This document shows positions 170-2,767 of a stretch of 64,000 nucleotides of DNA, piece by piece. The notes beneath the pieces were generated by a model that worked only from the letters and a program-made list of their open reading frames with translations, had not been told where the DNA came from and made no database searches. The position numbers were made by a program, and so were the translations under genes. Source of the stretch: Agrococcus sp. Marseille-P2731 (GTDB lineage Bacteria > Actinomycetota > Actinomycetes > Actinomycetales > Microbacteriaceae); NCBI RefSeq assembly GCF_900117395.1, contig NZ_FPEG01000002.1, positions 62,001 to 126,000 of the forward strand. Reading direction: 5' to 3'. Each line of letters begins with the position of its first letter. The stretch's first letter is position 1.

Positions 170-266
170 CGCCGGTCTACCGCCGCCGTCGCCTCCAGCC
201 TGATCGCCGGCGCCCAGGCTGGTCGGCGACACTGCTCAGCATGGCGACGAGACGGCGCGAGGCGCG

Positions 267-1712
267 GTGAGGGCCGCGCTCATCCTCGGCACGCAGCTGC
301 TCGAGCGGCATCCGGCCTTCGACGACGGTGACATCGACGAGCTGCTCATGGTCGAGTCGGCGGCGCTGTTCGACCGGCTGCCCTACCACCAGCACAAGAT
401 CGTGCTGGTGCTCTCGGCGATGCGCCACTTCGCCGAGCGGCAGCGCGAGCAGGGCCGCACCGTGCGATACCTGCGGCACACCGATGGCCGCGGCTTCGCG
501 GCCGGCGTCGCCCACCTCATCGAGCGGCACGACATCGATGGGCTCGCGTGGATGCGCGCTGCCGACCGCGGCGTCGACCGTCGCATCGACCGCATCGCCG
601 CCGCCGCCGACATCCGCTCGAAGCGCTACGCCGACCGCGCGTTCCTCACGCCCGAGCCCGAGCTCGACGCGTGGTTCCGCGACCATCCCCGAGCGCGCAT
701 GGAGGACTTCTACCGCTGGCAGCGGCAGCGCACCGGCATCCTCATGGAGGGCGCGCACCCCGCGGGCGGTCGCTGGAACTACGACGCCGACAACCGCGAG
801 CCCCTGCCCAAGGCGGGCATCCCCATCCCGCCGCTGCCCCGCAGCGAGCCCGATGCCATCACGCTCGAGGTCATCGACGAGGTGCGCGAGCGCTTCCCCG
901 ATCACCCCGGCGACGCGCGCGACTTCTGGCTGCCCGTCACGCGCGACGATGCGCTCGCCTGGCTCGACGCCTTCGTCGAGGAGCGCCTGGGCGACTTCGG
1001 GCGCTACGAGGATGCGATGGCGGCCGACGAGCCCTTCCTCTTCCACTCGGTGCTGACGCCCGCCCTCAACACCGGTCTCCTCGCCCCGCACGACGTGGTG
1101 GATGCGGTGCTCGGCGCGAGCGGCGACGTTCCGCTGCCGTCGCTCGAGGGATTCCTGCGCCAGGTCATCGGCTGGCGCGAGTACATGCGCGGCATGTATC
1201 GCGCGCATCCGGAGCTCGAGGGCGCGAACGCGCTGGGCCTCACGCGCGAGCTCGAGCCCTGGTGGTACACGGGGGAGGGCGTGCCGGCGGAGCTGCCGGT
1301 GCCGGTGCGCACGGTGCTCGAGCGCGTGCTGCGCCACGGCTATGCCCACCACATCGAGCGGCTGATGGTGCTGGGCAACTGGTTCCTGCTCGAGGGCTAC
1401 GCGCCGGCCTCCGTCAACCGCTGGTTCCTCTCGCTCTTCGTCGACGCCTACGAGTGGGTGATGGTGCCGAACGTGTTCGGGATGAGCCAGTTCGCCGATG
1501 GCGGCATGGTCGGCACGAAGCCCTACGTCTCCGGCGGCGCCTACCTGCAGCGCATGGGCCGGTGGTGGCCGTCGCAGCAGGCGGGGAAGGAGTCGGCGTT
1601 CACGGAGGGGTACTGGGACTTCCTGCAGCGGCACGAGGCGGTGCTCGCGGGCAACCCGAGGCTCGCTCGGCCGCTCGCGCAGATGCGTTCGCGTCGCGCG
1701 GTCGAGCCCTGA
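267..1712 (+). CDS. FeS-BCP-type (6-4) photolyase/cryptochrome homologue lacking all cysteines
   Basis: 481 residues from a GTG start. The protein aligns by eye with the prokaryotic (6-4) photolyase/cryptochrome group (PhrB/CryB, DUF523-independent 'deoxyribodipyrimidine photolyase-related'), FAD flavoproteins that repair (6-4) photoproducts or sense light. Visible landmarks are ILGTQLL at the N-terminus, PYHQHKIVLVLSAMRHFA near residue 40, GWREYMRGMY near 300, GYAHHIERLMV near 357 (the active-site His region) and MVPNVFGMSQFADGG near 396. The family normally binds a 4Fe-4S cluster through four cysteines in the C-terminal half. This sequence has no cysteine anywhere: the segment at about 433-452 that should carry the CxxC and CP pair reads WWPSQQAGKESAFTEGYWDF. 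The frame is intact, so this is not simple decay. Family call is firm; repair activity is not assured. Confidence 0.88.
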   Translation: MRAALILGTQLLERHPAFDDGDIDELLMVESAALFDRLPYHQHKIVLVLSAMRHFAERQREQGRTVRYLRHTDGRGFAAGVAHLIERHDIDGLAWMRAADRGVDRRIDRIAAAADIRSKRYADRAFLTPEPELDAWFRDHPRARMEDFYRWQRQRTGILMEGAHPAGGRWNYDADNREPLPKAGIPIPPLPRSEPDAITLEVIDEVRERFPDHPGDARDFWLPVTRDDALAWLDAFVEERLGDFGRYEDAMAADEPFLFHSVLTPALNTGLLAPHDVVDAVLGASGDVPLPSLEGFLRQVIGWREYMRGMYRAHPELEGANALGLTRELEPWWYTGEGVPAELPVPVRTVLERVLRHGYAHHIERLMVLGNWFLLEGYAPASVNRWFLSLFVDAYEWVMVPNVFGMSQFADGGMVGTKPYVSGGAYLQRMGRWWPSQQAGKESAFTEGYWDFLQRHEAVLAGNPRLARPLAQMRSRRAVEP

Positions 1713-1734
1713 GGCGCGAACGCGCAGCACTTCG

Positions 1735-1761
1735 GTTGTGCACAACTGAATTGTGTGCAAC
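1735..1761. promoter_or_regulatory. Probable OhrR operator overlapping the ohrR promoter
   Basis: A perfect 12-bp palindrome GTTGTGCACAAC (1735-1746) is followed by the related near-palindrome ATTGTGTGCAAC (1750-1761). The pair sits directly upstream of a MarR/OhrR gene and covers the region where RNA polymerase must bind, ending 9 bases before the ATG. The AT-rich dyads stand out in GC-rich DNA. OhrR proteins are known to bind such dyads and repress themselves and ohr; binding here is inferred. Confidence 0.65.
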
Positions 1762-1770
1762 GATCGAGTC

Positions 1771-2250
1771 ATGGCCCCGGAAGCGAACCAGCAGCGCGTC
1801 ACCGACCAGATGGTCTGCTTCGCGCTCTACGCCGCCGCGCGCGCGACGACGCAGGCCTACCGCAGCCTGCTCGAGCCGTGGGGGCTCACCTACCCGCAGT
1901 ACCTCGTGCTCGTGACCCTCTGGGTCGAGGGGCCGCAGAGCGTCAAGGCGCTGGGGGAGCGGATGCAGCTCGACAGCGGTACGCTCTCGCCGCTGCTCGC
2001 CCGCATGGAGCAGGGCGACCTCGTCGCGCGCGAGCGCGGCGGCAGCGACGCGCGCGTCGTCACGGTGCGCCCCACGGAGCGCGGCGCCGCGCTGCGCAGC
2101 GAGATGGAGGGCGTGCCGGCAGCGGTCGCCCGCGGGCTCGGCCTCGCCGACGGCGTCGACGGCGAGCAGCTGCTGCAGACGCTCCACGGCATCTCGGCCT
2201 CGATGCACGCCGTGGCCGACGATCCGTCCTCGGTGCTCGCGGCGCGCTGA
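1771..2250 (+). CDS. ohrR: OhrR, MarR-family organic-peroxide sensor and repressor
   Basis: 159 residues from ATG 1771. A CFALYAAARA motif holds a single reactive cysteine (Cys16), the position that senses organic hydroperoxides in OhrR. The winged helix follows (LTYPQYLVLVTLW, VKALGERMQLDSGTLSPLLARME, then a basic wing). A frame extension to GTG 1753 exists, but the ATG is preferred because AACGAT lies 6 bases before it, matching the leaderless promoter spacing of this genome. The gene lies 94 bp upstream of ohr, the usual partner: reduced OhrR represses ohr and oxidised OhrR lets go. A short hairpin, GCGCCG-CTT-CGGCGC at 2251-2265, follows the stop codon. Confidence 0.9.
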   Translation: MAPEANQQRVTDQMVCFALYAAARATTQAYRSLLEPWGLTYPQYLVLVTLWVEGPQSVKALGERMQLDSGTLSPLLARMEQGDLVARERGGSDARVVTVRPTERGAALRSEMEGVPAAVARGLGLADGVDGEQLLQTLHGISASMHAVADDPSSVLAAR

Positions 2251-2344
2251 GCGCCGCTTCGGCGCTGCTGCCGACCGCACGGCGCGACCCCCAACGCTTC
2301 ACCCGTGCGACGCATCCGCGTTGCCGACGACGAGAGGAACCACC

Positions 2345-2767
2345 ATGGACGTGCTCTACACCGCTGAGGCCCTGTCGACCGGCGCTGGCCGCGACGGCCG
2401 CGTCACCACCGTCGACGGGAAGCTCGACCTCGAGATGGCCGTGCCCGCCGAGATGGGCGGCTCCGGCAAGGGTGCCAACCCCGAGCTGCTGTTCGCGGCC
2501 GGCTACGCAGCCTGCTTCCACTCGGCGCTGCAGTCGGTGGCGCGCGCCCAGAAGGTCACGCTGACGGACTCGAGCGTCGGCGGCCGCGTGCAGATCGGCC
2601 CCGACGGCTCGGGCGGCTTCAGGCTCGCCGTGCACCTCGAGGTCGTGCTGCCGGGCGTGCCGGAGACCCAGGCCCGCGAGCTCGCCGACGCCGCGCACGC
2701 CGTCTGCCCCTACTCGAACGCCACGCGCGGCAACATCGACGTGACGATCGCCGTCTCCGATGACTGA
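2345..2767 (+). CDS. ohr: Organic hydroperoxide resistance peroxidase Ohr (OsmC family)
   Basis: 140 residues from ATG 2345 with GAGAGGAA as ribosome site. Ohr reduces organic hydroperoxides with two redox cysteines; both are present, Cys57 in AACFHSAL and Cys121 in VCPYSNATRGN, the two family signatures. Length is normal for the family. It sits behind ohrR and is probably controlled by it. The last 8 bases overlap the start of the next membrane-protein gene, so the two are probably translated together. Confidence 0.95.
   Translation: MDVLYTAEALSTGAGRDGRVTTVDGKLDLEMAVPAEMGGSGKGANPELLFAAGYAACFHSALQSVARAQKVTLTDSSVGGRVQIGPDGSGGFRLAVHLEVVLPGVPETQARELADAAHAVCPYSNATRGNIDVTIAVSDD

Follow-up and report, generated by a model that had tools for sequence, protein, structure and literature searches.

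What stands in for an iron–sulphur cluster in a photolyase that has none of the cysteines that would hold one? The question is raised by a gene in a 64,000-nucleotide stretch of Agrococcus sp. Marseille-P2731 (contig NZ_FPEG01000002.1, positions 62,001 to 126,000, forward strand; the whole stretch is called the window here), whose product has no cysteine among its 481 residues, as the original prediction had stated. With a probability of roughly 0.78, we read this protein as a flavin adenine dinucleotide (FAD)-dependent, blue-light-driven (6-4) photoproduct photolyase of the cluster-free prokaryotic kind, in which a tryptophan-bearing loop and a proline would replace the [4Fe-4S] cluster.

The domain and modelled fold of the window protein suggest an intact prokaryotic (6-4) photolyase. 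Its single Pfam domain is PF04244 (DPRP; 227 bits against a cut-off of 22.1), no NCBIfam model matched it at an E-value of 0.001, and among solved structures the best sequence matches are PhrB of Agrobacterium fabrum (4DJA, E 5e-102), the Caulobacter enzyme 9HNK, CryB (3ZXS) and 8IJY. The AlphaFold2 model, built with 52 aligned sequences, has a mean predicted local distance difference test score (pLDDT) of 95.4, with values of 95–96 across residues 421–450 in the cluster-loop region. A Foldseek search with this model ranked prokaryotic (6-4) photolyases at the top, with template modelling scores of 0.84–0.92 by query length, and VIA-align returned ten prokaryotic (6-4) photolyase entries at Z 42.6–47.1 against at most 28.4 for the other photolyases and cryptochromes listed; superposition on PhrB gave Z 46.4 and a root mean square deviation of 1.9 over 472 residues. 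The result does not point to a different, naturally cluster-free family, since cysteine-bearing relatives come closest among solved structures in both sequence and fold. The genome itself contains one DPRP match, together with one FAD_binding_7 match on another contig that represents a second photolyase.

The cluster site is where the protein departs from this family. The PhrB ligands C350, C438, C441 and C454 align with P346, W434, Q437 and S443, so that the four cysteines by which the FeS-BCP subtype is recognised are all replaced and the window protein is not classed as FeS-BCP. Residues 433–452, where the original prediction had located the missing ligands, account for three of the four; the remaining one is C350, opposite P346. 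Ligand-free members number 65 among 181 unique sequences (the window protein, PhrB and 179 relatives), and ligand sets proved to be all-or-none, with four cysteines in 116/181, none in 65/181 and a partial set in 0/181. Of the 65, 43 belong to the window type and 21 to the sister type (“M-like”), and the remaining one is a fragment, L198, which is absent from the tree and from the loop count described below. L198 comes from a sister-type photolyase gene (G1112 C26) whose two pieces overlap but are read in different frames, the result of either gene breakage or faulty sequencing. One further protein, L085, has Ala at position 10 and is included in the 43 window-type proteins of the loop count but not in the 42 of the residue counts.

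Loss of the ligand positions is accompanied by a shorter loop of distinctive composition. The span from M434 to Y460 (PhrB numbering) measures 27–29 residues in iron–sulphur (FeS) proteins, 20 in the window type (43/43) and 17 (20 proteins) or 21 (one protein) in the sister type. Tryptophan occurs within this loop in 64/64 cluster-free proteins and in 0/116 cluster-bearing ones: window-type loops contain two (42 proteins) or one (one protein), and sister-type loops two (20 proteins) or three (one protein). The W433–W434 pair of the window protein is confined to the window type, in which Trp is found at position 437 in 42/42 proteins and at 438 in 41/42; the sister-type tryptophans are placed differently, further along the loop. 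At the C350 site both types have Pro (42/42 and 21/21).

In a single assembly, a short and unusual loop just where the ligands belong might be taken for a sequencing or assembly artefact, or for the mark of a decaying gene, but its identical 20-residue length in all 43 window-type proteins, drawn from many assemblies, leaves this explanation hardly credible. The reading frame is open throughout, with a stop codon ending at 1712, and the fold motifs quoted in the original prediction, GYWDFLQRH among them, are present in the translation. Comparison with the Agrococcus terreus orthologue (L002) gave 0.10 nonsynonymous (dN) and 0.44 synonymous (dS) substitutions per site by the NG86 method, and this ratio of ∼0.23 points to purifying selection on the gene. 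The open frame, the pLDDT at residues 421–450 and the dN/dS ratio all agree with the original statement that no frameshift is involved. An antisense open reading frame of 541 aa spans the entire photolyase gene, and is most likely a high-GC shadow frame; a relative read antisense matched the minus strand of the window at E 8e-28.

The complete absence of cysteine is not a trait of the window-type lineage, whose members have none in 3/42 proteins, one in 36/42 and two in 3/42, mostly at PhrB position 117, distant from the cluster site. At that position 40/43 window-type proteins have a single cysteine and the window protein has Ala. FeS-type loci from the same bacterial family (L092–L111) have exactly four cysteines in 18/20 cases, or in 19/20 with an alternative choice of start codon, and since these proteins have so few cysteines other than the ligands, loss of the ligands leaves a protein that is nearly or wholly cysteine-free.

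The cluster-free proteins also group together in a tree. The gene was collected from 208 loci, counting the window, and these gave 180 unique proteins after the removal of four copies of the window's own locus, and all 180 together with PhrB entered the ligand and residue counts. Dropping rows shorter than 350 aa, and those sharing 88% identity or more with a retained row, left 132 plus PhrB, and the tree was built from 83 of these 133. With the ligand columns excluded, its 27 cluster-free rows make up one side of a 100/100 branch and split into a window type (10 rows, 100/99) and a sister type (17 rows, 100/100), and a single label change is needed for the FeS rows in all 200 bootstrap trees counted. 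The tree program flagged unusual residue composition in eight rows, including both Persicobacter rows and PhrB. Because the tree is unrooted, it does not distinguish cluster loss from ancestral absence. Independent loss of the cluster within the actinobacterial FeS group was considered and rejected, as 27/27 cluster-free rows fall together at 100/100. The cluster-free branch suggested by the original prediction is thus upheld by the tree and by the 65/181 ligand-free sequences, and is already published (passages of PMC4619345, PMC9178010 and PMC12082625).

The named loci are the best 80 of 579 relatives, a listing that favours kin of the window protein, and they divide into 40 window-type (L002–L040, L042) and 40 FeS-type loci. 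By label, 38 of these 40 window-type loci come from Agrococcus, Arenivirga, Microbacterium or Microbacteriaceae, with one more from Actinomycetota and one from Planococcus. The last, L025 (Planococcus sp., Bacillota), has a window-type gene that the tree places within Microbacterium sequences, and the record is probably mislabelled or a mixed assembly. Distribution is patchy: a match was found in 177/398 genomes of the family, 130/394 of the class, 51/396 of the phylum and 3/10 of the listed genomes of the window's genus. Cysteines were checked at up to 30 loci per scan, and the 30 family-scan genomes so checked comprise 6 window-type, 2 sister-type and 22 FeS-type; each of the 8 cluster-free genomes has one match, so that the cluster-free form replaces the FeS form there. 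Sister-type proteins come from Actinomycetes genomes and from two plasmid records of Persicobacter (Bacteroidota). Among plasmid records 87 matched, and of nine checked for cysteines seven have the cluster ligands and two, from Persicobacter, are cluster-free. These two genes (L172, L173) lie on large plasmids, are the sole cluster-free copies found here outside the actinobacteria, and both encode Phe at Tyr460. Phage records contained no match to the photolyase, and one scan of viral contigs yielded no confirmed relative.

Conservation outside the loop is what suggests that repair is retained. The PhrB active-site residues D179, D254, H366, L370, W390, M410, Y424 and Y430 are all kept in the window protein by alignment, and are invariant in 42/42 window-type and 21/21 sister-type proteins. 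In PhrB, (6-4) repair is reported to require H366, and lesion binding as well as repair to require Y424 (PMC4619345), and D179 and D254 are taken as counterparts of the predicted Mg-binding aspartates D178 and D253 of the Caulobacter enzyme (PMC12082625). Tyr460 is also kept (Y449 of the window protein), in 42/42 window-type and 17/21 sister-type proteins, with Phe in the other four, whereas Tyr437 and Tyr443 are absent from the window protein, being a Trp and a gap respectively. Judging from conserved residues and fold, the enzyme would accordingly bind lesions, donate protons and use FAD much as PhrB does. With the catalytic and lesion-binding residues in place, there is no sign of lost repair or of a sensing function, and the original suggestions of a changed or lost repair function and of a cryptochrome-like sensor both go unsupported, the same eight residues being kept in every cluster-free protein counted; a shifted lesion preference would still be conceivable. 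A light sensor without repair function has a precedent of sorts in CryB of Rhodobacter, a fold neighbour reported also as a bacterial cryptochrome (PMC9178010); nevertheless, lesion-binding Y424 and the proton donor H366 persist throughout the cluster-free proteins, and MarR, Ohr and DoxX, the three neighbours downstream of the gene, were found by tblastn at just two of 43 window-type loci, L002 and, partly, L003, so that no conserved regulatory partner is seen on the downstream side. We regard a sensor as very improbable.

Repair of cyclobutane pyrimidine dimers (CPDs) deserves somewhat more attention, though we consider it unlikely. Passages of PMC9426592 predict that the cluster-free Phr2 proteins of marine Synechococcus are CPD photolyases, a prediction inferred there from the absent cysteines, and describe Phr2 as shielding E. 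coli against UV-B and UV-C. Against this, PMC9178010 names PromaPL a 6-4 photolyase without a cluster, and PMC9426592 itself equates Phr2 with PromaPL.

Several points nonetheless weigh against (6-4) repair by a protein with a tryptophan loop in place of the cluster. The prediction in PMC9426592 is one of them, and the repair activity of the window lineage is deduced entirely from sequence and fold. In the alignment, 71 columns reach at least 95% conservation across 96 FeS rows, and the window protein keeps 61 of them; the ten that are lost are the four ligands, two cluster-loop positions (G450 and P455) and four that lie outside the cluster site (L62, F139, S269 and P338). The PhrB electron carrier W342 is replaced by Tyr334, although Trp occupies this position in only 45/96 FeS rows, so that the change is not tied to the cluster. 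The AlphaFold2 model cannot demonstrate either the absence of a cluster or the stability of the loop, the Trp counts cover related sequences and may reflect one or two events only, and the placement of the tryptophans differs between the window and sister types.

How a (6-4) photolyase might manage without its cluster is a separate and more tentative matter. Loss of the ligands argues that the [4Fe-4S] cluster is absent. Since PhrB cysteine mutants and iron-poor growth are reported to give insoluble protein (PMC4619345), some compensation seems to be needed, and the mainly structural job of the cluster in the C-terminal “roof” would then pass to the shorter loop with its tryptophans, W433–W434 in the window protein. 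The proline at the first ligand position may share in this replacement through a packing and stabilising role. We infer a hydrophobic plug of this kind, but that the structural cluster gives way to a proline and a shorter loop bearing paired tryptophans, in two sequence-distinct versions, is a proposal we hold at somewhat less than even odds. If true, the cluster would be a structural and redox option outside the repair chemistry, and the loop might be transferable into PhrB to give a cluster-free PhrB. The homologues in Agrococcus, Arenivirga and Microbacterium would serve as direct comparators for cluster function, and could help to settle whether repair is of (6-4) photoproducts or CPDs, on which PMC9178010 and PMC9426592 disagree.

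The antenna pocket also differs from that of PhrB. D10, E37 and R108 become Thr, Leu and Gly, with Lys47 kept and an R..Y loop present, a sequence pattern that recalls the one linked in PMC9178010 to 8-hydroxy-5-deazaflavin (8-HDF). CofG (FO synthase) scored above its cut-off in 1/6 window-type, 3/10 sister-type and 11/17 FeS-type genomes, and in 0/7 genus-mates without the photolyase gene. Its search gave no match in the genome of the window, and an 8-HDF antenna therefore cannot be assumed.

On the downstream side lie a MarR/OhrR-like regulator gene and an Ohr peroxidase gene, with an inverted repeat directly upstream of the former; among NCBIfam models Ohr is above cut-off and the regulator below its equivalog cut-off. 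From its sequence, the pair appears to form an organic-peroxide switch under a putative operator of its own, separate from the photolyase.

Table 1. Positions of the predicted photolyase gene, its key codons and adjacent features in the window.
Feature	Position	Strand	Remark
Gene of predicted cluster-free prokaryotic (6-4) photolyase	267..1712	+	481 aa, GTG start
Codon of P346, site of PhrB ligand C350	1302..1304	+	alignment
Codon of H362, equivalent to PhrB H366, proton-donating histidine	1350..1352	+	alignment; role from PMC4619345
Shortened cluster loop M430–Y449, sites of C438, C441 and C454	1554..1613	+	20 residues
Codons W433–W434 at PhrB Y437–C438, proposed tryptophan plug	1563..1568	+	
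Antisense open reading frame	177..1802	−	541 aa
Inverted repeat	1728..1753		
MarR/OhrR-like regulator gene, then Ohr peroxidase gene	1753..2767		

Cluster-free members of this family have been described in print from several directions. According to PMC4619345 the cysteines are absent in 7% of 464 members, a set also described as lacking Tyr437, Tyr443 and Tyr460; the window protein fits this by its absent Tyr437 and Tyr443 and misfits by its kept Tyr460, and the 2015 alignment may have treated shortened loops differently. Passages of PMC9178010, which would name the entire group “prokaryotic 6-4 photolyases”, define a cluster-free subgroup M (20/110) that includes PromaPL. As described, subgroup M resembles the window type in having no ligand cysteines, in otherwise retaining the fold and active site of PhrB, and in standing apart from the FeS members; PromaPL and the published M members lie outside the sequences compared here. 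PMC12082625 adds that the cluster may be dispensable in some members and that its function is still elusive. Across the titles, abstract beginnings and paper passages covered, there was no account of tryptophan in place of the cluster, and a query joining photolyase, Microbacteriaceae and 6-4 returned no paper; the Trp-bearing shortened loop is possibly the new detail, with 20 residues and a Trp–Trp pair in the window type against 17–21 residues in the sister type found here. Another described protein is Phr1 of Curtobacterium aetherium L6-1, from the same bacterial family, which PMC12029717 presents as (6-4)-like and as adding to the UV survival of E. coli alongside a CPD partner. PhrB, an FeS-BCP, shares with the window protein its fold and D179, D254, H366, L370, W390, M410, Y424, Y430 and Y460, and differs in the four ligands, a loop seven residues longer, W342 (Tyr in the window protein) and D10, E37 and R108. 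SePhrB of Synechococcus elongatus (8IJY), an FeS-BCP with an 8-HDF antenna, superposes at Z 47.1; both it and the window protein have an apolar residue for Glu37, no Glu37/Arg108 salt bridge and a loop ending in P-Y, but SePhrB has the cluster and the window protein does not.
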